A stretch of 64,000 nt of DNA, taken from Neelides folsomi (taxonomy: Eukaryota > Arthropoda > Collembola > Neelipleona > Neelidae). The notes under the pieces are model-generated. The model was given only the letters and a program-made list of their open reading frames with translations. It made no database searches and was not told the origin of the DNA. Location of the stretch: positions 56,321-120,320 of the forward strand of contig JAQGBZ010000192.1 of assembly GCA_034687125.1 (NCBI GenBank), given 5' to 3'. Positions 2,134-61,757 of the stretch are shown one piece after another; the stretch's first letter is position 1; each line of letters opens with the position of its first letter. A program made the translations under genes and the position numbers.

Positions 2134-3718
2134 ATGGGAATCCATTACCTCCCGTTGACGACGGCCGGCGGCCTCTTCCTCGCCGGCGTCCTCATCTATC
2201 CCGCTCTCTTTCTCCTCCTCCGGAGGCTGTGGGCCAACACAGCCCTTGGCCAGAGGATCCGACAAAAATATGCTTTCTCCGACCGAGAGGTCGCCGACAT
2301 CTCCAACAAGTGACTCCTCACTCTTTGACTCTCTTTGACCTTTCCCCTTCCCCGCTAATCAGGATTGGGTTGGTTGTAGGATCGTCTCGGCCTTCCAGGC
2401 AGTCATGGCCGGCGTGTCGGGCATTGTCATCGTCCACGCCTGTCTCAACGATGTGCTGCGGGAAAAGAACCCGATGAGTGTCATCTACGGATGGTTTGGA
2501 ATTCCCTACTTCGTCTACGACACCTTCTGCATGTTCTATGTCTATCGGCTCGAGCAGAAGGGGAAGTCGTTGGTGGGGACGTTTTTCAATTTCGTATGGC
2601 GAAATCCAGTCATCGTCACTCATCACATCATCATGGCTCCCATCGGATTTACACTCATCCTTGTAAGAAAATATTAAGTCCATATACATACATATACACA
2701 TTCTCATTTATACACAATACATATTGAAAACCCAATGCTTTTTATGAATCTTCGATCACGAGCCTATCTCAAAAAGTGCAATATATAAGTACATACTCTA
2801 GATACGGTATAGGAAATACCTATATATACAAATGCCAATAGTCATTGCAAGACATCTTCGACTTATGTAACAGAATACTTGCGGAGTACTTACATTGCAT
2901 TCATATATAATATAGGAATCGAATCACCATTTTAATTCGATTCTCTATTTTAGCACTTGTAAAGTACTTGTACCATTCAAGTTGGAATTTGATCATTTTA
3001 AAATCTATTTTAGTTCTATCGGGACGAAGTGAAATGCGGGGATTTCTTTGTCGGGATTCTGTACATGATGGAAGTGTCGACTCCGTTCGTTTCTCTTCGG
3101 TTTATCCTAAGCAAGATGAAGTTGAAGCGATCTTTGCTCTACACCATCAACGGTCTTTTTATGCTCCTCACCTTCCCCGTCTTCCGAATAGCGAGTGTTT
3201 TATGGGCCACGTACCTCTACACCTCCCAAAACTCACAGTCATACCTAACCGTAAGATTCTTCTCTTCTAAAATGTCAAATAAGCTAATTTTACATGTCAC
3301 ATAGGGATTTATCCCTGTGTCAACTTTTACAAGTCTGTATGATTCTTTTGTTAACAAGTCTGTATGATTCTTATGCTTACAAGTCTGTATGATTCTTATG
3401 TTTACAAGTCTGTCTGTATGAGATATGAATGAACTGATGTTGTAAATGCAGGATTGGTTTAATATTTACAAATTCTGTAATTTTACATTTAGTGGCAATT
3501 TATATTCAAGATAATTCAAGATAATTTCGATAATTTAGTGATAATATAATCTGATTGATTTGTGAGTTTACGTTTTTTTAAATAAGGGAATGTTGGAAGT
3601 TCCGATTTTGTGGCTGGGTCTTCTGGGCGCCTCCCTCGCTCCCCAGATCTACTGGTTTGTTCTCATGGCACGAGGGCTGGTCCAGATCTTGAGGAAACAG
3701 CCGGTGAAGGAGGAATGA
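2134..3718 (+). CDS. TLCD3A: TLC domain-containing protein 3A-like (FAM57/CT120 family)
   Basis: Four exons, 2134-2309, 2380-2662, 3014-3250 and 3587-3718, join in phase to 275 aa. The protein is a multi-pass membrane protein of the TRAM-LAG1-CLN8 (TLC) family. Residues 9-32 form a hydrophobic segment (GGLFLAGVLIYPALFLLL), and the TLC domain follows from about residue 60. Family landmarks include GSGIVIV-like (here SGIVIVHAC), IPYFVYD, VTHHIIM, GDFFVG, EVSTPFVSL and the last-helix motif APQIYWF, which match vertebrate TLCD3A/B rather than TLCD4. Family members are linked to ceramide and membrane-lipid homeostasis in ER or plasma membrane; the reaction here is inferred only from family. The ATG at 2134 is chosen because the hydrophobic N-terminus begins there. 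It is convergent with SNRPD3. Confidence 0.93.
3329..3422. repeat. 25-bp tandem repeat, about 3.5 units, in TLCD3A intron 3
   Basis: Units start at 3329, 3354, 3379 and 3404. Each begins ACAAGTCTGTATGATTCTT, and the last is truncated. The array lies wholly inside the third intron (3251-3586). It is a local minisatellite with no coding role visible. Confidence 0.9.
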
Positions 3719-4074: not shown

Positions 4075-4654
4075 CTATTGTCCGCGGCCTCCACGAGACC
4101 CGCCGGGTGTTGGCCACGACCCGCCACCCCCGCCGCCGCCTCTAGAAGAGCCGCCGCCTTTATTCGGCGTCGATGGAATTCCGCCCCTCATTCCTCCTCT
4201 CGATCCTCCTCTCGCTACAAATAAATAAACCTTTTCAAAAAACTCCAAATCACTTTGGTCACTCCATTAAGGAGATCGACGATGTAAATAGTACCATTTT
4301 ATTTTATTGGAAAAATATAAATTTTAACTTACTTGCTCCTCGCATCATGGCAGCTTTTCCGCGGGCGCCGGCTCCAATACCGGCGCCCTTTTGCCCGACT
4401 CTCTTAAACATTGGAGCATTTTTTAACATGTCGGGCAATATCATGAAACGAATCTTGGACCCCCGAACAAAGACAAGTTCCAGATGGGAATTTCTTCCGT
4501 CTCGGTAGGTCACATTTACATTTGTCATTTGACAATTCATGTTGTCTTCGGCTTCGATCAATTTTCCACGAAATACTTCTCCAGTGGTCGTTTCAAGGGT
4601 GACTATGTGACCTTCTGCTTCATGTAAAACTTTTATAGGAACACCGATCGACAT
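4075..4654 (-). CDS. SNRPD3: Small nuclear ribonucleoprotein Sm D3
   Basis: Two exons, 4333-4654 and 4075-4214, join in phase to 153 aa. SmD3 is a core subunit of the heptameric Sm ring on U1, U2, U4 and U5 snRNAs. Residues 1-85 form the Sm fold: [16 protein letters not shown] opens Sm1, EDNMNCQM is the conserved loop before Sm2, and [21 protein letters not shown] is typical of SmD3. Exon 2 encodes a Gly/Arg tail with repeated RGG units; symmetric dimethylation of such tails for SMN binding is known for the family and inferred here. The tail is longer and richer in RGG than the human one. The start at 4654 is the canonical MSIGVP start. Confidence 0.97.
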
Positions 4655-5755
4655 TCTAAAGGCTAAACAACAAAAATTTAATTAATTTTTACCATTTATG
4701 ACAATTTTTAAAATAACTTAATGTTAGGCTAAAATAAAGTGTAAATATTATTTTCTAAGATAGGTAACTTTGACCTCTCTTTTAAATTTGTTTACAAAAC
4801 AAATCATTGAAATAATACTTATACTCGTTTTATTTTAGCCTAAATTTTCTATTTAAATTAGTCTGTATATTAACAAATACATAATTAATATTTCATAATT
4901 GTTTAATAACAATCATTTGTTATTAAAATGAATATACAAACAATAGAATCGAGAGAGATAAAACTAAAACTAAGATTTTTTAATAAATAACATTGAAAAT
5001 AAATAAAAGGATGATTTAAATAATAGATGTAACATCTTATGAAGGGGTTAAAAGTGTATCAGGGGTTAAAATAAATTTGAAAGTCAATTAACCTTTTGCT
5101 TTATTTATATTCAAAAATCAAATTCGATTTCTGCCTTAAGAGGCTTCTTCTTAACTGAAGCGATTTGAGAAGCCGCAGTTTGGAGAAAGCGCGGAGATAG
5201 TTCCAATTTAAATCCGTCAAATGGCGCTATCTACATTGGCCAAAAATCCAAATTCTCTCTTTTCCCAAATAAACAACGCACCGTTACATTTTTGCAAAAG
5301 TTAGCTAATATGAATAATATGTACCTAAGACATATCATGAAAAATAAATGCATTAGTATTGATTTGGTAATAAAACACGTTCAAATATGGGATTTATAAA
5401 ATTATTTAATTTTTAGATACATTTCATATAATTTTGATAATAGCCTCTAATCATAACATCAAATTTTGTCCGAATATAAAAATTATTTATGGGCAAATTA
5501 AAAGGTTTAATTACTATAATTTTGGTGAATTTTGAATATGAAAATCTTATAATTATACATATCGAATGAGCCGTTGATATTTTTAAAATTAATAGATAGG
5601 AGCTCTATTTAGAAGTTATTCTGAAAATTTTAGTAAATGAGATGAAAAATTTTTGAAAATAGGGCCATAATGATAGTAAAGTTGAGAAAAGAAATTTTTA
5701 AGATTTTGTAGATATCGCATGTTGGTTTGTAAGCTCGTAAGGTCGGCAGGTCGGG
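4655..5755. other. Intergenic DNA: SNRPD3 upstream and TTLL2 downstream
   Basis: About 1.1 kb, mostly AT-rich. A GC-richer block at about 5140-5290 has promoter-like composition and may serve SNRPD3, but no specific motif was assigned. The part next to 5755 probably includes the TTLL2 3' UTR. No exon or RNA gene was recognised. Confidence 0.45.
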
Positions 5756-14862: not shown

Positions 14863-14972
14863 CATTAGCGTTCCTCTGTAATTATCCATAATCATGTGAG
14901 ACTGAAATCATCATAAATTCGAGTTTTTCATTTTTATATCAAGTCTCATTAGATCCGCATGATCTTTGGATT
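14863..14972. promoter_or_regulatory. Duplicated non-coding element A, copy 1
   Basis: A 110-bp segment starting CATTAGCGTTCCTCTGTAAT and ending with GATCCGCATGATCTTTGGAT. It matches 28275-28384 end to end on the same strand, with long shared blocks at both ends and a more divergent middle. It contains TAATTA and TAATC cores typical of homeodomain sites. It lies 2.4 kb beyond the stop codon of Pax3/7 copy 1, the same side as copy 2 of the element relative to its gene. Retention with non-coding changes suggests an enhancer; this is inference. Confidence 0.75.
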
Positions 14973-15212: not shown

Positions 15213-15328
15213 GCTAATGGGCATAGAGAATGGGCATGCAGAAATGGTTTAATCGACTCCTTTCGCACTCATTATTCGCCTCGCGTCTCTAATCCCCTTG
15301 AAATCCCCATTCTTCTCTTCTTAATCAG
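15213..15328. promoter_or_regulatory. Duplicated non-coding element B, copy 1
   Basis: A roughly 115-bp segment that begins GCTAATGGGCATAGAGAA and matches 30171-30310 on the same strand. The strongest block is TGGTTTAATCGACTCCTTTC followed by GCACTCATT; GCGTCTCTAATCCC and a terminal TCTTAATCA-like block are also shared. Copy 2 has two short insertions. TAAT cores recur throughout. It is 1.9 kb 3' of Pax3/7 copy 1. An enhancer role is inferred from paired retention. Confidence 0.75.
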
Positions 15329-17345
15329 TCGAAGGAAGATCGGAGGTTGGGGGAGGTTGGTAGTGGACACGCTGTCCCGCGTTCCCACAAACACCAGCTG
15401 CCTCATAAATCCACCCGGGGCGGACACATGTCTCGCTCCAAATCGCCCGTCACTTCCGACCCCGCACACGTGCCGGCTCAAATTCCACCGAAACAACATA
15501 TCGGAATACCCGCGGACAAATTTTTTGACAACATGATTTGTAAACAGAGGTCAATTTTATGTTTATCTTATTACAATACCGAAAGATTACATCCATGTAA
15601 TACTACATGTTGTTCCTACATACTTTTCTTTATTGGAACAGAAAACAATTAAGGTATATACCTAATATAATATAAGTACACATATCTGTACTTTATGTAT
15701 ACAAATATTGTAAAGTATTCATAAATATATATACCTATGTATATTACTTGTAGTTCAATTTCTGTATGCATTGAGATCTAGTCTCGAAATTATCCATAGA
15801 AGTGCAAATAGATACTATATGTATTTATATACAGTATGGTATGTATGTATACAATATGGTATTAGAGTTTTGATTTTTGTAGGATGTAATTTATGGTTCT
15901 CTTTGAAAGAAATATAAAAAATGGTTAGTACTATAAGTAATAGTACAATTGAGAAATATTCATACTCCTACACTACTACATATATCCACATATACCTATA
16001 GTTCATGGTTCAGTTCCACTCATAATGATGTGGGAGAATGACGTGAGCAAAGGAAGAGATATTAGAGCACAGAGATGCATATACTTAATATTATATATTA
16101 TGGTAGTTCCATTATAATAATAATGTACGTTAAGTATATTTAGTATACTAAGTATATTTCCCCACGGAATGGAGCAACAGGTGCAGTGATCCATAATGGC
16201 GTAGGTTGGAATTGGTTCTGAGGAGGGCGTCCATTGTCGCGACTGGCCCAAGAGGAAACGGCTCCCACAATGGGGAATGATAAAGGGGATATGAGGATGG
16301 AAAGTATCGGACACGCCTGAGGAGTCGCCCGGTTGTCTTCATGGAAGCTTCACCGCATTTCTCATCCAGCGATCCGGAGGAAGAGCCTTCTGTCCCACGA
16401 CCAACCTCCACTCGTGGGATCCTCTCAAAAACATCCACCCAACCCAATTGAGCCTTCACCAAAAAATCCACAATTGGCTTGACCATCGATGGCTAAAAGC
16501 GTCTGACACAGTTGGGCCAACATCTCAATTGAACCTCCAAGCGCCACACGTCGCTTCCTCGGCCGCATTCGCACATGAAATAAGGAGGAAACATTTTCTG
16601 CTTTCTTAACATGTAATAATGAAAACCAATTTCACCTCGCTCGCTCCAAAATTCTTTAGAATAAAATGACATTGGGGAGGAGTTGAAGACGATTTATTTC
16701 ATTTCGACCAACACACCAAGTAAGAGTTAGAATGAAAGTCTTAGACGCACTTGGGAAGAAAACAATTTAAAAGAGAAGGAGGAAGCTAAAACACTAAATA
16801 CATATAAAACAAAGGGAGATTCCAAATATTCAAAATTATTTCTCCGACGAGAGAAATTGTAAACTTAAGATAAATTAATGCTTTAACGACGATAAAATTT
16901 ACACCACTACAACATACACGTTTTAAGTAATATATATTAAACACACACATTTTAAGTAATATATAGTAAACATATATCTTATGTATTACACCTATTTATA
17001 TAGTACTTTGCACATTTTTATAAACATTTTTCATATAGCATTCTAAGCTTCTAAACACAACTCGAGTCAATATACAAATGGTAGGAACAATATTTAGAAT
17101 ATTTTTATGTGAATATGAAAAAGAATTCACTCATTCTGCACAGGTTATGTCCGTTTACTGGTAAAGTTACGAAGCTAATAATACGTTAAATTTACAAATA
17201 CTGTAGGTGTATTTACCTTAACTATAATACATACATAGGTATTAGGAAAACATTATATTATGATGAAAACATTATATTAATGATGAAAACAGTATTATAT
17301 TTATTAGTATGAAAACACGTAAATATATATAACGAGATTGTGCCC
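15329..17345. promoter_or_regulatory. Non-coding DNA immediately 3' of Pax3/7 copy 1
   Basis: Contains a GC-rich tract to about 15510, an AT-rich stretch at 15520-16140, an island at about 16150-16800 and an AT-rich segment up to the stop codon. The last several hundred bases probably hold the 3' UTR. No exon was recognised. Confidence 0.35.
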
Positions 17346-20300
17346 TTAATACCAAGAGTAGAACTGATGATGACGCGGTCCCACAGGTCCCATTAGTCCG
17401 GAAGAGGAATACGAGGGCGGAGCGAGGGCTGAGGTCATCGACGGCCGGGAAGCGAGAGTTCCCCAAGACTCGTCTTGGATCGGTTGGTGATTTGGAACTC
17501 CATACCCGCCCACTTGTGCATTTCCGACCTGAGAACGAAAAGGAGTTTGACCTCAGTTTGGAATAACTCCCACTCTGGCTCCGATTCTCGGAAAAGGGCA
17601 AATTTCCAGCCCTCGTGGTAGGAGAGAAATTTGCCCATTGATGGGGGAGAGTCTCCACAGGTAAATGGGCGGAACATGGTGGAATAATTGAGCGAGGGAG
17701 GGAGAAGACAAAAGGGAAAGTGGAGTGTGTGGCAAGAGGTTGGCTCCCTCGACAGCTCCAAGGAATCGGGTTGTAAGAGGAATTGAAATTCGTGTCGCCA
17801 CACCGAATCAATCCTTTTCTCAATGGGATTTAGCCGTAATTTGAGGATGAGGGGCGGAAGAATGAAACCATGCAGTTTCGGCAGAATCCAACTCTCAACA
17901 TCCATTTACCAAACCGGTCCGTGAGTCGGAAGAAGAGGAAAAACATACATTCTCTGAAACGTCGTGGCTCACCTGTGGCGATAGGAGGGACCCTGGTGAA
18001 GACGAGTATGCGGAACTCATAAGGGAATTCCCGAGGCTCACGTACGAAGCGGGACTGCTGGTTACTGGTGGAGATCCCATTCCGTTCCCTCCATTCCGAC
18101 CCATGTCAACGGGCATTGACATGGAGGCCATGGAGGAAGAAATGGCTGAAGACACGGTCGGAGGCCCAGAAGGAGATGAGCTATACAGCGATCCGCCTTC
18201 TCCTGGACAACCAAAAATATTCAGTTCCAAACAAATATCATCAAATTTGCAAAATACCAAAAATGAACTGAACAGTTAAATTCTTTTATAGAAGGAAACT
18301 GGCAGGAAATGTTAATCAAAAAATAAGCATGAAGGAAAATGTCATTTCAAAAATGATTGAATGACTCACCTTGTGCTGTGGATCCGAAGTGAGATTCCGG
18401 GAGACTGTGGTGATGCGGATGGTGTGGGATAACTCCATAGGAAGATGTGGAGGCGGGATAAACTGGAAGCCCCATTCCAAGACCGTTATTATTCCCATAG
18501 CTTCCTCCTCCACTTGAGATCTGTTTCCGAAGACGAGCTCTCCGATTACTGAACCAAACCTATTTAAATATAAATTCATTTAATATTTATCTTTATCCCT
18601 TATACTCAAAAGATAAAAGTATGAATCCAGAACGATGATTTACATATGCGTTTAAACTACAATATGATAAATATGATATACCTAACTGTACACGATAAAT
18701 GATAAGTATGGTATATATCCTACATATGATAAACTGAGTAGTATATGCCTGTTAAAAGACGATGATTTTATAATTTTGGAATTTTAGTACTAACCATTTC
18801 AATTGAACAACTTATGAATATCCCCTACCAGCTAAACGCCCTATTTATGTGTGATCGATTAATGGAGGGATTTGATCATCCCACGTGTTGTAATAGAGGT
18901 GTGATGAGTAATTGAGTCGGTGAGGAGTATTGATGTCTTGAGGAGTGTGGGAATCAATTGTCATTGTTTGGAGTCAAATTCCATTTAAAGGCCTGGGGAG
19001 GTGGTGTCTATTGAGGCAGCCACCAGCAGCTCACCGAGTCGACGGGCCAATCTCGGAAACAACGGAGGAGGAGGCCCATTCACTCGGCCCCTTTGTCGTC
19101 GACTGTGAGAACTCGCACAGTGGGAAAAGGGACCTGGGGAATGCGAAACTCAAGTTGAGTCATCATACTCATTACCCGGGCCTTCGCCAACAGACCCATT
19201 TACTAAGTCTTACATACTACATATGTCTGTATGTATTATATAAATGTATGTAATATAGTTTGGTGTTGTGATGGTATTGGATGAATCCCAGGTTCCTCAT
19301 TTTCCTCATTAAAAGGACAACAATGACTTGCAAGTGGAAGACGGCTGGCCTAAACTCACCCACACCATTGGAGTCATAGGTGCTCCGATGAGCCTCGCAG
19401 CCTTTTCCCACAAAAGAACAAAGAAGGGGTGCTACCTGAATTCGGGCCTCGGTGAGCTTCGTCCGTTGAGCCAACTCCTCGCGGGTGTAAATGTCTGGAT
19501 ACTGAGTCCGCTCAAAAGCCTTCTCCAACTCGTCCAGCTGGTGGGCTGTGAAAGTGGTCCGACTCCGTCTCTGCTTCCGTTTCAGCGGAATCCCGGGTTC
19601 GGATTCGCAATCGCTCCCTTCGCTACTCTTATCTCCTACCATATTAGACATCCATCGGGTGTTATTAATTCCATAATTCCAGGTACTTTAGTATATGGGT
19701 GGGAGTTGGCTAACAGGATGGGATGTTTGGAGTCTCGATGTCGACCGCCCCTTCACTTTATTTACAGAAGTGACAACGAATGGATTTCCCACCAGAGACG
19801 GAGGGAGGAATGCGCGGCGGAGGCTGACGGGTACAAATGCGAGTTGGCCCTTTCCCAGCCCATTGGGTTCGTTCTCATGAAAGGCCGCCGCCGTGGAGCG
19901 GCTCTTGTAATTATCAAACCTGGCAAACTCTCCTTCCTTCAAATTTATTATTTGGGGGAAAAAGTGGATTTAATATACAAGGTCTGTATGTGGGGGATTG
20001 GATGATGTTACGTATATGGGCTTCCTCGTACCTCATAATTGAAATCTCATTAGATCGCTCGATCGCATGATCAACATTCATTTAACAAAATCATCTCTAA
20101 ATTGTAACCTGTCTTCTTCGTATTACATCAAGGGCTCGGGGATAATCACTAAAGGTTTTTTACAACTCTTCTCACATCATACACAAGAGGAGCCTTGGAG
20201 GACTTGTGATCTTTTAATACGAGCATTTGTTATATTCTATGCCTCAGTGGATCTGTGCGAACGTTATGGAAAGCTTCCACCTGAATTCCGACGGATCTTT

Positions 20301-22946
20301 ATGGGAATTGCAAAAGGGGAAATTTTCATTTTTAGAAAGCGAGGTCCATTGACAAATCCTCTATTAGCAATAATGCCATTGCCTCATTGTATTTTGAGAA
20401 AGCAGGGAGCAATCTTTAGTGAATACATAATTGGGAATTATCAACAAGGTTCTCATTTCAATTGAATGGACGTCCTGTGAGGATGTAAATGGTTCTTACC
20501 GTCAAGAACTTTCTTGTCCTCGTCGCCCTCTCGACCCCGAAGGAGGCGGGAAATGGCCGAGACAGAAGGAGCCGTCGTTCGGTCGCAAATGCCTTCTTTG
20601 ACCAGCCTGCAGGAGAAACGAGACTTCATCACCCCTTCCTCTACTCTATGAGACCAATTGAGAAACGGAGCCATTGAAACCCAAGTAATTGTAATTATAT
20701 TATCCTACTATTCAGCAGCGACCCTTGCTCCAATATAGAATAGGGCTAATCCACCATAACCCAATGGAATAATCCTTTTATGAAGCAGAGGAGCAGTAAA
20801 GTTTTCAATCACAGCATAAAGATCATTAGCGCTCAATCACCCTGTCGTAAGCAAATTATCTAATATGTTGGGTGGAAACCAGACCTGTCTCGAATTTCCC
20901 ATGAAAAGATTTCCGGATTTTCCCCTTTGTATTCTTCGATTCTTTTTTCCACATCGGGAGTTGCGACCTTCGGCTTGGAACCGCCGATGACCCCCGGTCG
21001 GATGCTCCCCGTTTCCTGATATCGGTTCAGGATTTTTGAGACGCAGCCGTGGGAGACGCGGAGTTGGCGGGAAATAACGCACGGTCGGACTCCCGCCGCG
21101 GCCATTTCTACAATCTTGAGCCGGATGTGATTTGGCAAAGGGCGGCCGTTTATGAACACGCCGCCGAGTTGATTCACTCGTCCCTGACCTGTTGGAAAGA
21201 ATCTTGTAACTATTTGGTAAATGATGGCAAAAACATGAACCGAAAGGTTATCAAGGAGATAAGAAGAAAGTGTCGAACAAATGACTTTGTAAGAGAAACA
21301 AAAGAGAGTGAGGTGGAGATGAGGGCAAAGGTCAAGAGTCGATTCTCCTCCTCTTCAACCCTTGTCAATCCCTCCTTCTTCACAGTTATTTACAACCGAG
21401 AGTTGATAATTTTTACGGCACTAAACTTTACTCCTCTCTCCATTCATTTTGACCTTTAGAGTTCCTCGTGTTTCTTCGAGCTTCTCGACCTCTTTGAAAG
21501 AAACCCTACGCATTTCTCAATTTGCTGTGACAATTAAATGGCTCTTTCACTCAATCATCGAAGCCCATTAAGATTCATTTAATTATGACATGTTTCTTCA
21601 AATCCCAAATCATATTTCATACTTGTCAGCTTCACTCTTTCCAACTATGTATTTGTATAGATAAATATGTAAAAGAGCTTTTATCTTTCGAGCCAAATAA
21701 TGTAAACATATCCCATTGCTTTTAATGATGATTTGTTAATTATTATCTCAATAATCATCATAAGAACTAGATATTCTTACATATTCTAGTATTGTACTAC
21801 CCTATAGATTTAATATACAATCATAAAGATAAAAATTCCTACTTGTTTAAATTCACTTATTCTTGTAGTAAAAATCTACTTTTAAGTTCAAATTTCCTAA
21901 ATGGATACTTAACATTAACATGAAAGTCAATAACTAAATAAATAAATGTATTAACAGCTCCAGTTTACACATCGTTATTATGAATGGGAAACGCTGACTG
22001 ATATTTTCCAAAATGTTGAATAAAAAATTATTTTGTGTACGAGTACATCATGTGCTTGTTCTGAACAAGTGTTGATTGTGAGTTCCCTCTGATCTTCCTC
22101 CAAGTGTATAGACCATTGTGTTGAGTCTGGGTATAGGGATTTGAAAGGGATCAGACGGTGGAACGTGAGAGAGAGTTCTGACTCACAACTTCTGACGTCT
22201 CTCTCAAAGGCTCGAAAAGAGAGTTTCATTTACAACCCGGGTCCCTTTTTATTGCACCCAATTTGGTCTGAGTGTCCGAGCGGAGATAGCTGACCGTCGT
22301 TTCCAAATTCCCTCTCTTTCCTTTTCCTATTAAACCCTCATGACCCGTGAAATCCTCGTTTACGGCTCTCAATAAATCAATGGCTCGTTATTGTTCCACC
22401 TTCTTCGCTTGTCAACCCTTCCTTTGACCTCTGAGCGCCTCATCGTCTTCCTACTAATGTCCCAATTACTCTCTCATCACTCACTCACCCATTCTAATTA
22501 TTCAGAGGACCTGTTGCTCTCTTAAACTTCCCAGCCTTAAACATTCCATACAAATTACATATTACACCAATATTACACCAATGTACAAATGTACACTTCT
22601 AAAAGTAAATATGCAAAACACTACACTAAATATAAAAAACAAAATATTAAATATATATAAAACTAATACTGAATGTGAATATATAAAATTACTAAATATA
22701 CAAAACACAATATTACTAAATAGAATATCTTTTATATATAATTGTAAAAATAATTGTAAAATACAATTTGAGTCTTTAAATAAGAAAAACATTAAATTCA
22801 ATAGAACAGAAAACTCTGATTATTATAATTATTTTAAATATTGTAGAATTGTGAGGGAAAAAAGGGAAAGTGAATGTTTTAATTTTACCTTGAAATGGAT
22901 ATCCAGCAAAACAGGGCCTCATCATGGCGATATTGGTGACTGTCAT
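17346..22946 (-). CDS. Pax3/7: Pax3/7 transcription factor (gooseberry/pairberry type), copy 1
   Basis: Seven exons (22889-22946, 20885-21188, 20500-20606, 19436-19635, 18370-18559, 17973-18202, 17346-17528) give 423 aa. Residues 1-19 are [19 protein letters not shown]. The paired domain spans about 20-147 ([19 protein letters not shown] at the start). A paired-class homeodomain spans 178-237 with Ser at position 50 (residue 227) and the usual intron between homeodomain residues 46 and 47. The C-terminus is Ser/Gly/Pro-rich and ends QFYSWY. In arthropods these nuclear DNA-binding factors pattern segments and neuroectoderm. No recognisable octapeptide lies in the short linker. The exon 2 donor is a weak GTCTGG. 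Tandem paralogue lies 9 kb further right, upstream on this strand. Confidence 0.97.
18560..19435. other. Intron 4 of Pax3/7 copy 1, with an internal GC-rich island
   Basis: An 876-bp intron splitting the homeodomain. In the paralogue the same intron is only 63 bp (33320-33382). A GC-richer block lies at about 18830-19200. The size difference means the block was gained here or lost in copy 2; an intronic regulatory element is possible. Confidence 0.4.
20045..20072. promoter_or_regulatory. Partial third copy of an element A motif in intron 3 of Pax3/7 copy 1
   Basis: The sequence TCTCATTAGATC, seven extra bases, then CGCATGATC resembles TCTCATTAGATCCGCATGATC in element A1 (14944-14964). It lies in intron 3 (19636-20499) on the same strand. 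The match is short, so chance or a shared factor-binding grammar are both possible. Confidence 0.35.
21189..22888. other. Intron 1 of Pax3/7 copy 1
   Basis: A 1.7-kb intron with a GC-richer part near exon 2 and at about 22080-22500, and AT-rich DNA elsewhere, including 22560-22850. No exon was recognised. Intron 1 of copy 2 has a similar length (1624 bp) but no long matching block was noticed. Confidence 0.4.
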
Positions 22947-28274: not shown

Positions 28275-28384
28275 CATTAGCGTTCCTCCGTAATTACCCG
28301 TAATCAACTGAGCGTCATAATAAATCCGGGAGTTTTTTCCTCGTTTCATATCGAGTTGAATTGGATCCGCATGATCTCGGGATT
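28275..28384. promoter_or_regulatory. Duplicated non-coding element A, copy 2
   Basis: Matches element A1 (14863-14972) on the same strand over the same 110-bp length. Shared blocks are CATTAGCGTTCCTC, GTAATTA and GTAATCA-like cores, a GGAGTTTTT-like run and GGATCCGCATGATCT. It lies 3.5 kb beyond the stop of Pax3/7 copy 2 and 5.3 kb upstream of the copy 1 start codon, so it could act on either gene; matched order suggests copy 2. Confidence 0.75.
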
Positions 28385-30170: not shown

Positions 30171-30310
30171 GCTAATGGGCATAGAGAATTCCCATTATTC
30201 ACCATGCAAAAATGGTTTAATGGACTCCTTTCGCACTCATTTCTTCGCTTCCTTCTCCCTCCCGAGCGTCTCTAATCCCTTCGAGATCTCATCTATTTCT
30301 TCTAATCACT
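30171..30310. promoter_or_regulatory. Duplicated non-coding element B, copy 2
   Basis: Matches element B1 (15213-15328) on the same strand: GCTAATGGGCATAGAGAA, TGGTTTAATGGACTCCTTTC then GCACTCATT, and GCGTCTCTAATCCC. Two insertions, after the first block and in the middle, make it longer than B1. It is 1.6 kb 3' of the Pax3/7 copy 2 stop, close to the 1.9 kb seen for B1. Confidence 0.75.
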
Positions 30311-31926
30311 CCCTCACCCTACAAACCCCATCACCCTTCCCGGCTGCTCCAACGGATCCAACCCCATAAATCACACGCTCGTTCCTTTCCCCCATGTCCG
30401 GAAATGACACTTTGTTTCCCTTCCAGCCAGGTAATAGATTTATAATACACTCAATCCATTTAGGATACAAACCCACACAGTCCATTTGGAAACACTTGGA
30501 GGAAATATGGGGCGATAAATCTTGGGCCCCCACGTGCTAATTCTCCTCCTCTGGGAGATGACTAGGATTGGTATTAATATACGAGTACTGGTATATTATA
30601 TTATTATGGGAAGAGGCATCCCGTGCAAGATGTCCATTTGTAACCGCGGATAGTTTCTGGACCTTTTCCCAAACACCGCCCCTCATCATCATTTGGGAGG
30701 CTGGGCGAGATTGGTCGTCACGCGTCACGTCTCCTCATTTCGATTTCCTCCTGCAAATCTGTGGGCTAAAACGAGGAGGATCAGTTCCCATCATGCCCAC
30801 CTGGGCTCCGTCGCAGTGGACTTCCTCATTAGGCCACCTCCGTTGCCAAGACATGAACGCCCCATTTCCTACCTGCATAATGAGGGAGGGACCGGGAGAG
30901 GCAACAGGTGCGCGCCCGGGTAGGCCAATTAAACCCCCTCCCATTGTCCTCTGTCCCGGAGACAAAAGACCCCGGATCCTCCATTCCGGTAGCCGGCCGG
31001 CCCAAAAGCCATTTCGGTAGCGAGAACCTCACGAGCAAATTCCCTCCACACAATGGAGGGAGTAATGGGAAGAATGGTGGAGGGATGAAGGCATTCGCCA
31101 CGCCTGACAATTCACTCCTCCACTTTTTCCTCAAGAGTGACTCCACTTGGAAACCAATCTTGAGAATCCTCAAAAAACCTCCTTGGAGTAAATTGGAAAT
31201 TGGACTACCCCGACCCGACCGCAACCTCCGCTCACACGTAAACAAACGAGGGCCGATGGAGGAGAACGGAGCCACGGGGAATTATGCATTTATCCTAGCA
31301 AATACTCGGCTCGCTCCAATGCATCTCGCCATCTGCGACGCCTTAACGACATGCAAATCTCCGAAAAGAATAACATCTCAAAATATAAAAGTTTAATAGG
31401 AAGCGGATAATGCTTCACACTAAATTACACAATTACATATATCCCACACGATATCCAACAGTACTACATTTATCCATGCCTCATTCTAACATGTATTAAA
31501 TATATTCTCAATTTGTATTTATTTCCATATGAGCTATACAAAGATAAAAAGTAATGGTATTAAGTATTATATAGATACATTTGATACACACACTTATGTA
31601 CAAGTAAATAAAGTAAATGCTGTTGTAAATATTTACATAGTTATTATATGTAAAATATTGTAAACTTATTCCAGATTGGGATCATTGGTCAAAATCCCCT
31701 CGATTTAAATTTAATCTCTAAGAATATTAAGTAAGTTTTAATGTTGATATTAGTATCCTAGCCGCAAAGACATCCATATTTACAATTTAAAATACATATA
31801 ATTATCATGGTTGCGAGACGCAGAGATGAATTCAGATAACAGCCAGATAAGAAAGACTCCGAAGGATTCTTGTTGATTGGCAAACATCATTGGTGTGCCA
31901 ATTGTGTTTTTCCCCGAGGGTGGAGT
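30311..31926. promoter_or_regulatory. Non-coding DNA immediately 3' of Pax3/7 copy 2
   Basis: A GC-rich tract at 30600-31390 is open in several frames on both strands, but no frame shows a known domain. AT-rich DNA from 31400 to the stop codon probably includes the 3' UTR. The tract is a candidate regulatory island by composition. Confidence 0.35.
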
Positions 31927-34900
31927 TTAATACCAGCTGTAGAATGCCTGATGTCGCGGCGGGCCCATGAGAGGCGGAGCCGTCGAATACGAAGTGGGAG
32001 TTAAACAACCCGTCATTCCCGCCCGACCTCCCCAGGTTTCCTCCCCTTGCCCTGGAGATCCGTAGCCTCCGAGTCCACCCGGCGGAGTCCCGTTCCCCAC
32101 CTGCCAAAACCCAAACCATTACTCATCCTTTACACTTAATTGAATTGAACCAATTGAAACAAAAAGGTAATTGAAATCAATAGTTCATTTATTTATCTCC
32201 TCAACTTATCTCCATTTAAGAGATTGATGTTCTATCATATTTATATTATCATGATATCATTTATATCATATTTATCATGTATCATTATCCTAATACCTAT
32301 TAATATCTTGACTCGTTTCAACCTTCTCTGACAAGAACCGCAAAAGAATGTAAAGGATATGAATTTATAGGCTTTTTACATCATATTTTTGTTATGTGAT
32401 GTCGAGTGTTTGAGGAAACTCTCTGAAAGGTTTTCCTTATTTTCTCATTGTAATTTCAATCGTTGTTTTCCTTGGGTGTTTTTATAATAGAAATGCCTTT
32501 GAGCCGTCGTGTTGGCTGCAAAGGCCTGGTTCCCATTTTCTGCTCGCCCACTCTCACTCTCACATCCTATTCTCTGTAAATGGGCCATGGAAGATTTGTC
32601 TTCAGCCCTTCCGTTGGGACTATTTACAAATGGAGTTGAATCCATTAATCCATATTGGTACCTTTGATTGAACTTACATTGATGCCTTAATGTTAATAAC
32701 ACTGTAGTTAATAAAATAGGATAATAAAACCAAGACTCCCAATGTTCACTCCTCAGCGACCCGGAATTGAAGGAAAAGAGTCAAATAATGGGTTTGGTCG
32801 CATAACGAACGCCACTTGGGAATACATGAATAGGAAATGGAGACAGTTTCCCCGAATCGTGCCTCACCTGTGGAGTTATGAGGGACGATGAGGAGGCGTA
32901 GGGCGACCCCATGAGGGAGTTCCCGAGCACACCAGCGTAGCCAGAGCTGTTGGACGTGGTGGGTGAACCCATGGAGCCGGATGACCCAGGGCCGTTGGCG
33001 GGACCGTAGGAGATCCCATCTCCGCCTAAAACACAAACCGTCACGACCCGCCTCCTTTGGCCGCATTGGGAACGGAAGGGAATTGGACACGAGAAAGTGT
33101 GAAAGGGTGTTTAAAGGCGTTGGCGAGTGTCCTCGTACAAAGACACACCCAACACCCGTCCAACCATGGCCCACCATTACCTGAGAACTGGGGCTCCTGA
33201 TGTTGGACCGAGTAGGAGGACGAGGAAGAAGGATAAAGCCCCATCCCCACACTACTGTAACTGCTCCCTCCGCTAGAGATCTGCTTACGGAGACGAGCAC
33301 GACGATTGCTGAACCACACCTGAAAGGTTACAATTGGAACGATGCATCGTTTTCTCCCATCGTGACGGGACAATTTACATACCTGAATTCGGGCCTCGGT
33401 TAATTTCGTCCGTTGGGCCAACTCTTCCCGGGTGTAAATGTCTGGATATTGAGTGCGTTCGAAAGCCTTTTCCAACTCGTCTAATTGATGTGCCGTGAAA
33501 GTTGTTCGACTTCGGCGCTGCTTACGCTTAAGAGGAATTCCAGGCTCCGATTCGCAATCTGAACCATCGCTGCTTTTTTCTCCTAGAGAGAAAATTAAAA
33601 TTAACTAAAATCAATAAATAAATTTAAGCTTAAATGTAAATATTTGTATATCAGAAACCCCCATACTAAAAACTAATCCAAATAAATAACAAATTGCTTA
33701 ATCAACTAAATCAATCTAATCTTAAGAGTGGCAAAACAAAGTTTCTTTATCTTCTAAATGTTTATTTCTGCAAACATTGTATTTACTCTAATTATCCACA
33801 CGAGTTTGTTTATGAAGTTCATATAAGGATTTATTCGTGTTATTTGAAAGCAATGAAATTGAATCCGATCTGCTTTTTTCTAAATTTCTTATCTCCAACA
33901 CAACTCATAATTTAACGTGTACTAATATTAAGTATCTGTACACCATATCTATACCATTTATATTCCTACAGTGAAACTATACATACCTACCTAATGTGAT
34001 GTTATATTATTTATTGAGTATGGGAAAAGATAGGAATTGTAGTAGTCATCAAATAAATTCCATTTTTTCCATCCAATAAAACAGAATTATTTCCTGTGGG
34101 GGATTGGCTTTGACCTTTCGCCGAGGAAGGAGCGTAAACAGATCCGTGTCGTTTGGAGAATAATGAGTCCCACTCCAAATATTTGTCTCTGAATAATTCA
34201 TGGGGAGCTGATTAGGCCCCTCCACACTTCACTCTCTCCGTCCGCATCAAGTCGGATCAAGTGTCTCATTCGCGAAAAGAGGGGCGGGGGAATAAGTGAG
34301 GGAGCTCAAAGACACCGCCGGATCGACTTCCTCCTCCCAATCCCCTCCCTCCGTTCCCACATGTGCATGTGAAGAGATAATAAGCGGAGCTCTCCCATAA
34401 CTCATCTCGGCCCCATTAAGGACGGATGAAGAACAACCGGGAGATCTCTGTGTACTTTGTCTCGCTAATGCCCAGACTCGAGGAGGGTAATGAAATTAAG
34501 GGAGGTCGTGTGAGAAGAAGGATGGGCAAAGATGGGTCCCCTGCGGGACGACCCTTCAACCGAACCTCCTCCGTTCCTCACATTACTCTTTGGTGGCTTT
34601 GAAGGCGGCCACCGCTCGAGAGGCCCCGCAGGTCGGAGGGCCATTGCGTGTCATCCGCACATTGCTCATTTCTTTGCCACCTCTCAGCCGCCGAGGGGAA
34701 ACTTACCGTTGGGGGAGTCGAGAAGCTTCTTGTCCTCGACATCACATTCCCGCCCGCGGAGGAGGCGGGAAATAGCTGACACCGAAGGGGCGCTAGTCCG
34801 ATCGCACAAACCTTCTTTGATCAACCTGGAAATCACACAAAGGGATTTGAGTACAAATACAAGTACAAATACAATATTTGTACTAACCAAGGTAAATTTC

Positions 34901-37496
34901 ACATTACATTATTGTAGTAAATTTAGGGTTGTGGAAGAAAACTCTGATAAATCTCTTTATTTAGTTAAAGGAAAATGACAGACGTTTGGATTGTTGGACA
35001 AGGCTTTTGTTAAATGAGTTAAATGAGAAATCAACTTGGGTTAGAAGAATTAATTGGTCTTTTTGTGGATGGGAGCACATGAGATTTGTTAAGTTGATCT
35101 TAAATTCCTTCCCTTAATCCTTCAGAGAATGAAACGGAGGTTCTTAATTTGTAAATGTAAATACAAAACCCGACTGACACTTTCTCCTCCTTCAATCGCC
35201 GCTGGAGTCCGCCCAATTAGTGAATGAACATCTTTTTTTCCTCCGCATCCTCTTTACACATCTCAATGCTCTGTCGGAATCTCATTTGCTTAATCAAATG
35301 GCTCTAATTACATCTAGAATCTCGATACATATCTAGATATATATCTCGATATACTCTCCAATGTTAAACGGGGGCAAATATGAAAATAATTAAAAACCAC
35401 GGGATCTTTATATCAATTAAGTCCATGATGCTTAAAAGTTCCAAGACAAAAAAACTCTGCATATCTCCTGCCTATAAAACTTCTATTCTCCGACTAGAAA
35501 TTTTTTTTACCGGTCTCGAATTTCCCATGAGAAAATTCCAGGGTTTTCGCCTTTGTAGTCTTCGATTCTTTTTTCCACATCAGGAGTTGCGACCTTGGGC
35601 TTGGAACCGCCAATGACCCCCGGTCGGATGCTCCCCGTTTCCTGATATCGGTTCAGGATTTTTGAGACGCAGCCGTGGGAGACGCGGAGTTGGCGGGAAA
35701 TAACGCACGGTCGGACTCCCGCCGCGGCCATTTCTACAATCTTGAGCCGGATGTGATTTGGCAAAGGGCGGCCGTTTATGAACACGCCGCCGAGTTGATT
35801 CACTCGTCCTTGACCTAACCACAAATAAATATTTTATTAACACTGAACTTGAATTTGGAATCGGCTTAATTCTGTCACTGTACTTATACATACTTATAAC
35901 TAGAAGAAATCTACAAGCAAGAATGTTAAAGGTATTTATGCCCATCATAACAAATCAATCTTCGTTCTAATTTTGCTAATAAATGAATCATCATTATTAC
36001 CATTATTATTGGTATAAGTACTCATTGTACCTAACAAGTACACAACACACAATATACAAATACATCTTACTGAGATAGTTAATAAAATTCAACTTGTTAG
36101 CATAATACTTTTATATGGAATATGTAACATACATACATACAATATACAAATACAAATCTGTTCTATAATAGTACATATACATTATGTATATTACAATAAT
36201 CGAAAATATTTATTACTAACTATATAAAGAGATATATGATATATGGAAGCACAGCTTAAGTATACTCTTATTATTAGTTATAAGTACATAGCTAAATAGT
36301 TTTATATGTGTAATAATAAGGCATCAACAAGACTCTTGGATTCTTTGTGTTGGTTATTCATAATTTGATAACTTGCAAAAATTTTATTAAATAGGAAGCT
36401 CATATTCTTGAGAAATTTACTGATAAGAAATTTAATTGGCAAATTTGTAATAATGCGACTTTGTGCGAGATCCTGATGGTGGAAATTTAGAATTATTGGC
36501 TCAATTGTTTAGTTTTATAAATTTTATATATAAATTTATATTTATTCCTCCTCCTTCAACAGAGGACGATAGAAATAGAACAAGTGATGTGAATTTGTAA
36601 GATTTGATCTCGGCAAACCCTTGGCGACACTAGTCTTTAAATCTACAATTATCTCGATTGTGTGTGGACGGATGGACTGGGAGAATTTCATGGCTCATTC
36701 CATCAATGAGTGTTTGGTTGTAAACGAAGAAGGAGCCTTGAGGGCCATTTGGGACAATCGGAGATTAGAAGCTTGAAATTTGGTCCCACCGTAAAAACCT
36801 CTTCATTCATCATTTCTTGGTGTTCCAGTCAAAGAGGCACTTTGATTCTTTACACCCCTGAACTTGACGACTCTCTCAGGTCCCAACATACAAGGGCCTT
36901 TTAAGAAAACAATTGTAAACAGATGGGGGTTAAATGTTCGGGGATTACAACCTTCAACATATTACACAACATGGGAGATTTGTTGGACAAATTTGGGCTC
37001 ACATATTTATACTGTGGTGAGTATTAGTAGTGCCACAACACGTTCAGAGAACCCGAATATGAATACCAAAATGGTATTTTGTCCATACAATATCACAATG
37101 TATGTATTTAATTTAAAACTTACTTAACACTTAAAAGTTAATATTCAACACTTAAGTTTACAATATACTTAAAAAACTAAACTCGGTATTTATATGAATT
37201 CATACAATTACATATATAAATAATAAAATTTCCCTTCCTTGTCTTATTGAGATAAAACTCCTACATATAGTTATGGTAGATACATATGTATTTGTTAGGA
37301 GAATCTGAATCTGAAACTCGGGAATTTAAAAAATGTAAAATAATGATCCCTCATGTAACGTTTATTGTAAATTAGCTCTTCTCTCACAAACATAATAGTA
37401 TTTATACAAGGTGAATGATTTTTAATATAGAAACTTACCTTGGAAAGGATATCCTGCAAAACACGGTCGCATCATGGCGATATTCGTAACAGTCAT
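31927..37496 (-). CDS. Pax3/7: Pax3/7 transcription factor (gooseberry/pairberry type), copy 2
   Basis: Seven exons (37439-37496, 35511-35814, 34707-34825, 33383-33582, 33181-33319, 32868-33025, 31927-32100) give 383 aa. Exons 1, 2 and 4 have the same lengths as in copy 1 (58, 304, 200 nt) and all phases agree. Residues 1-19 are identical to copy 1, the paired domain covers about 20-147, and the homeodomain is 182-241 with Ser50 at residue 231. The tail after the homeodomain is shorter than in copy 1 and ends FYSWY. As in copy 1, no octapeptide is visible between the domains. It is a nuclear DNA-binding regulator; overlapping patterning or neural roles with copy 1 are expected from the family. 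The exon 2 donor is GTAAAA, better than in copy 1. Confidence 0.97.
35815..37438. other. Intron 1 of Pax3/7 copy 2
   Basis: A 1.6-kb intron, AT-rich except for a GC-richer block at about 36580-36910. That block has no recognised coding content and is a possible intronic regulatory element. Confidence 0.4.
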
Positions 37497-60091: not shown

Positions 60092-60805
60092 ATTGAATAG
60101 TAAATCAGAGTTGACGGAGGAATTTGTAGTTGTGGTATGCATAATAATAATACACACTTTGTTAACTACCAATTAGAGGAAATTGACTGGAACGGGGAAG
60201 GTCCGACTGAACCAAGTTGTACACAAGGAGTTGGCCATGAAACTGGTTCCTGGAAATTAGATTTTTGTTGACTCGTGGGTTAATTATTTAATCACCTGAG
60301 AGAGATGTTCTCTCCTTGGGCTCTTGGAGGTGAGTGAGCAGCTGAGCGCCGATGTCGGACCTTTGCCAAAGTTCTTCGTACTCAACGGGGGTCAGGAGGA
60401 TTTGGGAAAACAATAACAGCAAAACACGTTGATTACCATCATCATAGGAAAAGAAATTTCAATACACTGATATAAGTAATGATGGCTACTTATTTGTAAC
60501 ATGGTAATAATAATATGAAATATGATATAAAATAAATGGATATGACGATATGAGAATATCAGTATAGCAATTATATAAAGATTATTTTTTATTTAAAATG
60601 GTTTTTATTAAAATAAAATTATGATTAAACAATTGGGTATCGCAATCGAGTTTCTTCATATTTACAACTCATGTAATTCAAATGTGATACTTCAAAAGTC
60701 ATTAGAGAATTAATACACAAATGAAAAGACTAAATGGGTTTCTGCGCAAATTATTACAATTTGCCTTCCAGCCTATTTTATACAAATATTAAATATATAT
60801 TCAAA
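60092..60805. promoter_or_regulatory. KLHL18 upstream region
   Basis: The first 330 bp, to about 60420, is GC-richer and adjoins the KLHL18 start codon, so it probably contains the 5' UTR and promoter. The remainder is AT-rich with no recognised feature. Confidence 0.4.
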
Positions 60806-60809
60806 TTAA

Positions 60810-61255
60810 CAATATGAATCAATTTGACTCGCGAGATCAATTTTATTTTTTTACCGTTACTAGAGATTTTCCAAATTAATCAATTACTTAATTTATTATT
60901 AAGATTTTATAATTGAACTTATCACAAATATTGGGGCAAAATGAGTAATGTAATTTTGAAGACCAATACATATTGCAACTCATTATCTTTGTACTTTCAA
61001 AGAAAAACGTTGAAATTTTCTCAAACATTTAATTTTTGTTAATTAAGGAAGCTTTAATAATTAATAAAATAATTAACAAATTAAGTCTTTATTTCAATAT
61101 GAATAAGATTGAGTTGTCATTAAAGAGTATACAGAATAGAAATTATACTATCATTAAAACATTTTAAAAGATACACTTCATAAATTAAAAATAATTTGAA
61201 TCTCTAGAAATGTTTAAAATAAAATTGATCTCGCGAGTCAAATTGATTCATATTG
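60810..61255. mobile_element. Non-autonomous inverted-repeat element flanked by TTAA
   Basis: A 446-bp element with about 40-bp terminal inverted repeats that begin CAATATGAATCAATTTGACT and include the palindrome CTCGCGAG. TTAA flanks both ends (60806-60809 and 61256-61259), the piggyBac target site. The ends do not begin with CCY as in typical piggyBac elements, so the family is uncertain. The interior is AT-rich with no transposase frame. Confidence 0.8.
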
Positions 61256-61265
61256 TTAATTCCCA

Positions 61266-61287
61266 TATATATATATATATATATATA
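61266..61287. repeat. (AT)n microsatellite
   Basis: Eleven or so AT units directly right of the TTAA-flanked element. It is a simple repeat with no other signal. Confidence 0.9.
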
Positions 61288-61587: not shown

Positions 61588-61757
61588 GGGCTAATCCACG
61601 GTGAATATAAAATGTGAATAGCGAGAAACTCTTGAGGTTCTCTCAATATGCCCCATAAGTCATATACTTGTAACACGCGTTTATGACTTTGGGGCATAAT
61701 GAGGGAACCTCAAGGATTTCTCACTGTTTATATTTTACATTCACCGTGGATTAGCCC
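61588..61757. repeat. 170-bp near-palindrome (foldback element)
   Basis: Two arms of about 76 bases, starting GGGCTAATCCACGGTGAAT on each strand, flank a loop of about 17 bases near 61665-61681. The arms match with about a dozen mismatches and small gaps. A transcript would form a long hairpin. No clear target duplication is visible. It could be a foldback MITE or a hairpin RNA locus; the open frame across it (61479-61697, - strand) is considered spurious. Confidence 0.85.

Follow-up and report, generated by a model that had tools for sequence, protein, structure and literature searches.

The window, that is, the whole 64,000-base stretch of DNA that we have analysed (35.5% GC, 0 N), carries two genes, A and B. 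Both lie on the minus strand as a head-to-tail tandem about 14.6 kb apart, and they have at least five matching coding exons in identical order. Their parts are as follows, with the exon borders of both genes being predicted from the sequence.

About 22946 down to 17346, minus strand: gene A overall
22889-22946, minus strand: gene A exon 1, with the start codon at 22946
20885-21188, minus strand: gene A exon 2, encoding the paired domain up to position ~102 from position 1
20500-20606, minus strand: gene A exon 3, remainder of the paired domain
19436-19635, minus strand: gene A exon 4, encoding the greater part of the homeodomain
18500-18559, minus strand: gene A exon 5, homeodomain end, restricted to the part that can be aligned (the exon runs from 18559 onward)
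17346-17378, minus strand: probable C-terminal end of gene A, a tblastx match of 11 residues to 31927-31959 with a common stop codon
About 37496 down to 31927, minus strand: gene B overall
37439-37496, minus strand: gene B exon 1, with the start codon at 37496
35511-35814, minus strand: gene B exon 2, encoding the paired domain up to position ~102 from position 1
34707-34825, minus strand: gene B exon 3, remainder of the paired domain
33383-33582, minus strand: gene B exon 4, encoding the greater part of the homeodomain
33260-33319, minus strand: gene B exon 5, homeodomain end, restricted to the part that can be aligned (the exon runs from 33319 onward)
31927-31959, minus strand: probable C-terminal end of gene B, the tblastx match to 17346-17378

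The joined products of A and B each matched the complete PF00292 (1-125 of 125) and the complete PF00046 (1-57 of 57). As judged from their predicted products, A and B are tandem Pax genes with a paired box and a homeodomain. Among the 4 distinct sequences listed as solved relatives of the gene A paired domain, the best was Drosophila Prd (1pdn), with Pax6 scoring lower than Prd and Pax5. This match, together with what we recall of the family, suggests that the pair is Pax3/7-like. The genes gsb and gsb-n are tightly linked in insects according to the extract of PMC9632033, and we treat a gooseberry/gooseberry-neuro identity of A and B as a lead only. The second intron of gene A starts with GTCTGG (20879-20884) and that of gene B with GTAAAA, the A donor being the weaker-looking of the two in their letters.

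Within exon 2, the two genes share the following tract.

20987-21183, minus strand: identical tract in gene A exon 2 (paired box), with 0/197 bases and 0/64 degenerate codons differing
35613-35809, minus strand: identical tract in gene B exon 2, equal to 20987-21183

The initial annotation had reported these segments to be equal at every base, silent sites included, and this proved exact: the tract and its copy 14626 bases further on are identical at 197/197 positions, with mismatches at 20986 and 21184 bounding the match. The counts given there for the neighbouring sequence were also reproduced, 11/102 bases differing in 20885-20986 and 38/200 in the homeodomain exon (19436-19635 vs 33383-33582). 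Over exon 2 as modelled (20885-21188 vs 35511-35814) the difference amounts to 12/304 bases. The 11 differences of 20885-20986 are unevenly spread, with 4 in the 61 bases of 20926-20986 and 7 in the 41 bases of 20885-20925. Just outside the exon, 22/32 and 24/30 bases differ between A and B. The introns upstream of exon 2 yielded a single, non-collinear match of 31 bases (E 0.097), and comparison of the introns downstream of it yielded no match; judged by these alignments, the introns flanking exon 2 show no similarity that would speak for homology between A and B. The background identity of the other conserved exons is ~75-82%.

Silent-site divergence was calculated from an alignment of 243 codons over the five exons, with 227 codons comparable (same amino acid, not Met or Trp) and 16 dropped. 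Altogether, 78/227 comparable codons differ. Synonymous divergence (dS), obtained by the Nei-Gojobori method with Jukes-Cantor correction and rough at values near saturation, was 1.6 for exon 1, 1.8 for exon 3, 1.9 for exon 4, beyond correction for exon 5 and 2.07 for these four exons pooled. The tract gave a dS of 0 over 53.3 synonymous sites, with a 95% upper limit of 0.057. The scan of A vs B therefore revealed a sharp local fall to zero in a pair otherwise near saturation, the kind of drop that the initial annotation had named as a sign of conversion.

The same picture was obtained from the codon counts. Degenerate codons differ at 0/64 positions in the tract vs 68/130 in exons 1, 3, 4 and 5 (Fisher p = 7.5e-16), the latter exons being homogeneous among themselves in silent differences (p = 0.67). 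A single exon 2 codon upstream of the tract is comparable, and it differs between A and B. In the downstream rest of the exon (20885-20986), 9/32 degenerate codons differ vs 68/130 in the other four exons (p = 0.018), a lower divergence that is explained by a longer block of 258 bp, described below. In permutations, a test of the GENECONV type which like the codon tests takes codons as independent, a run of 64 identical codons among the 227 comparable ones occurred in 0/200,000 cases (longest run, 38); permutation within exon 2 alone produced the 197-base run in 6/200,000 and the 64-codon run in 15/200,000 cases.

The exon 4 homeodomain segment is identical in protein, yet 31/64 of its degenerate codons differ, and this bore out the earlier argument that protein constraint alone is insufficient to account for silent identity. 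Codon choice in the tract is mixed, with several codons used for most amino acids and at matching positions in A and B, and codon bias was rejected as the cause of the identity on this ground. If silent sites were saturated and followed the codon use of the two genes, the full tract would be identical with a probability of ~1e-31.

A change-point fit placed the edges of low divergence partly outside the identical tract.

20926-21183, minus strand: best-fit low-divergence block in gene A, 258 bp with 4 base differences
35552-35809, minus strand: matching low-divergence block in gene B, from the same fit
20885-20925, minus strand: end of gene A exon 2 at background divergence, with 7/41 bases differing

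With two edges, the comparable codons that differ were 9/18 before 21183, 3/84 in 21183-20926 and 66/125 after. Both edges are sharp, and the one at 20926 lies inside a homologous stretch, the remaining 20885-20925 being at about the exon 4 level. The fit with two change points had a BIC of 250.9 vs 252.7 with three, the third splitting off the perfect core. Regarding the tract limits first proposed, the 197 bp stand as a perfect core, and ~258 bp (20926-21183) is a better estimate of the low-divergence block; these 258 bp are the probable extent of the homogenised DNA. A single conversion of ~260 bp with a small number of subsequent mutations would be sufficient to produce such a block. Against a single event, all three silent differences fall at its downstream end, within the final 20 of its 84 comparable codons, which is not expected with even later mutation (0.012 under one even block). 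For this reason, a younger conversion nested inside an older one is hinted at.

Taken as a whole, recent non-allelic gene conversion between A and B is very probably the best explanation of the tract. The earlier proposal of such an event in exon 2 was supported by the silent differences (0/64 degenerate codons in the tract vs 68/130 in exons 1, 3, 4 and 5), by the change points at 21183 and 20926 and by the tandem position of the two genes. The conversion would be recent relative to the duplication, with a dS below 0.057 (95%) in the tract vs ~2 elsewhere. In the course of events that we propose, an old tandem duplication would have given rise to the Pax3/7-like pair, whose silent sites would have diverged to near saturation before part of exon 2 in one gene was replaced with its counterpart from the other, presumably through repair of a break with the paralogue as template. 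The replaced part would span no less than the 197-bp core, its most likely length being ~258 bp. One edge would lie near the exon 2 start, because homology ends there and the introns share none, and the other inside the exon near 20926. Exon 2 would be the likeliest template since no other conserved block of the pair is as long.

In a donor test, the codon use of the tract fitted gene A better by 5.6 log units, a value reached or exceeded in 45% of 5000 random label swaps. The GC3 of the tract is 0.656, near the upper limit of the values in the other exons (0.29 to 0.67). This is no clear excess of the kind that might suggest GC-biased conversion, which may nonetheless have acted. The extract of PMC3924818 places gene conversion mainly above 80% identity; because the background exon identity of ~75-82% is near this limit, it would be a little out of the ordinary for a fully diverged exon to be converted. 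Exon 2 may have stayed convertible through earlier events that kept its similarity. We see some room, short of an even chance, for a further reading in which exon 2 is an island left over from concerted evolution that was repeatedly re-homogenised, with an older event of ~258 bp or more and a younger one corresponding to the 197-bp core, whereas conversion no longer reached the introns and the other exons. Under such a history, exon 2 alone of the five compared exons would still be long and similar enough for conversion, and escape from gene conversion would be seen here mid-process, exon by exon.

An alternative to conversion is that the silent sites in the 5' two thirds of exon 2 are held constant in both genes by an additional role of the sequence, as enhancer, splicing signal, RNA structure or overlapping frame. 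We consider this very unlikely. The restriction of the identity to an exon is compatible with it, and an upstream edge near the exon start, which would also be given by exon constraint, counts against conversion. However, the other four exons of the same genes, with similar protein conservation, are near silent saturation. One other frame (+3) is open across the tract and is part of longer open frames in A and B, but it was also open in 31% of 1000 synonymous shuffles, leaving an overlapping reading frame unsupported. The RNA fold of the tract is mildly more stable than those of synonymous shuffles (z = -1.6, 400 shuffles); with this weak z, and with a scan of 14500-38000 that gave no Rfam match at the gathering score, RNA structure was likewise unsupported. 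Some probably non-coding DNA downstream of A and B is also conserved between the copies, at a level (86/115 and 100/143 aligned columns) far below the 197/197 of the tract. A search for orthologues in viral and prokaryotic contig collections returned 7 and 161 pattern matches, with 0 confirmed, and has little weight given the viral and prokaryotic nature of the collections.

The conserved downstream segments are in the same orientation in both copies and can be listed as follows.

14863-14972 and 28275-28384: conserved downstream of A and of B, respectively, 86/115 aligned columns
15213-15330 and 30171-30311: conserved downstream of A and of B, respectively, 100/143 aligned columns

With their coding status judged by tblastx only, they are probably non-coding elements duplicated along with the genes.

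An assembly or polishing error, in which one locus was given the exon 2 sequence of the other, would be another source of identity and appears highly improbable. Errors of this kind arise in near-identical short stretches. Such an error would nevertheless need two switches within ~300 bp, with flanks, frame and locus-specific introns all correct. The window being free of N also speaks against it, as do the four differences left in the downstream part of the low-divergence block, as from later mutation or an older event. That a spliced cDNA of one gene, instead of the genomic copy, served as the conversion template is barely credible: identity limited to exon sequence is what it would produce, but the low-divergence block stops short of exons 1 and 3, both at background divergence, each locus retains its own introns, and the non-homologous introns already bound a genomic tract.

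Conversion between paralogues is already known, and what is sharper here is that it would be restricted to a single exon in a pair otherwise close to saturation. Like A and B, the hexapod genes engrailed and invected are linked homeobox paralogues of old origin that belong to the segmentation system, with ongoing gene conversion being reported in the extract of PMC6444547, which cites Peel et al. 2006; they are arranged tail-to-tail, whereas A and B are head-to-tail on the same strand.

Closest in gene family are amphioxus Pax3/7a and Pax3/7b, which resemble A and B in that they are tandem Pax3/7 duplicates with DNA-binding domains very similar in nucleotides and the rest diverged, and in which conversion has been suspected (PMC6010424, partial text). 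In our search of the open-licence PMC literature on gooseberry or the paired domain with gene conversion or concerted evolution, this paper was, within the text portions retrieved, alone in suggesting Pax3/7 conversion. According to the same portions of PMC6010424, the amphioxus similarity spans the paired domain, octapeptide and homeodomain; in A and B, it is limited to one stretch of one exon, with the homeodomain exon at silent background. The amphioxus duplication is a chordate one and independent, as stated there for amphioxus, and we infer the same independence for A and B. The extracts of PMC5132259 and PMC3359188 mention conversion for other homeobox genes, not Pax3/7.

Further likenesses come from papers represented by partial text. 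The Dlx pair of Capitella teleta also consists of linked homeobox paralogues with reported conversion, but the pair is inverted and the tract takes in intron sequence (PMC3199776), whereas the A/B block is exonic only. Mammalian TPRX1 and TPRX2, PRD-class homeobox paralogues, have undergone repeated successive conversions that are commoner in the upstream region with the homeobox (PMC8208926); these were shown over many species, whereas A and B are one pair in one genome and the paired-box exon is involved. The GOT1 paralogues of Tigriopus californicus are, like A and B, a conversion mosaic of regions of low and high divergence (PMC3728101), differing in being crustacean metabolic genes with population data.

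The locus would be a clear example of a gene pair near saturation with a single exon still being exchanged, and it bears on the timing of the duplicates' escape from conversion. The paired box is often used for classifying Pax genes; conversion in one DNA-binding exon of an old pair would mislead paired-box trees and age estimates.

Elsewhere in the window, an open frame on the minus strand (4304-4681) presumably resembles the small nuclear ribonucleoprotein Sm D3. Long inverted repeats with imperfect arms were seen at two places, 61588-61757 (arms of 68 nt, 34 nt between) and 60779-61287 (arms of 60 nt, 366 nt between), and a short tandem array with a 25-base unit lies at 3327-3416.
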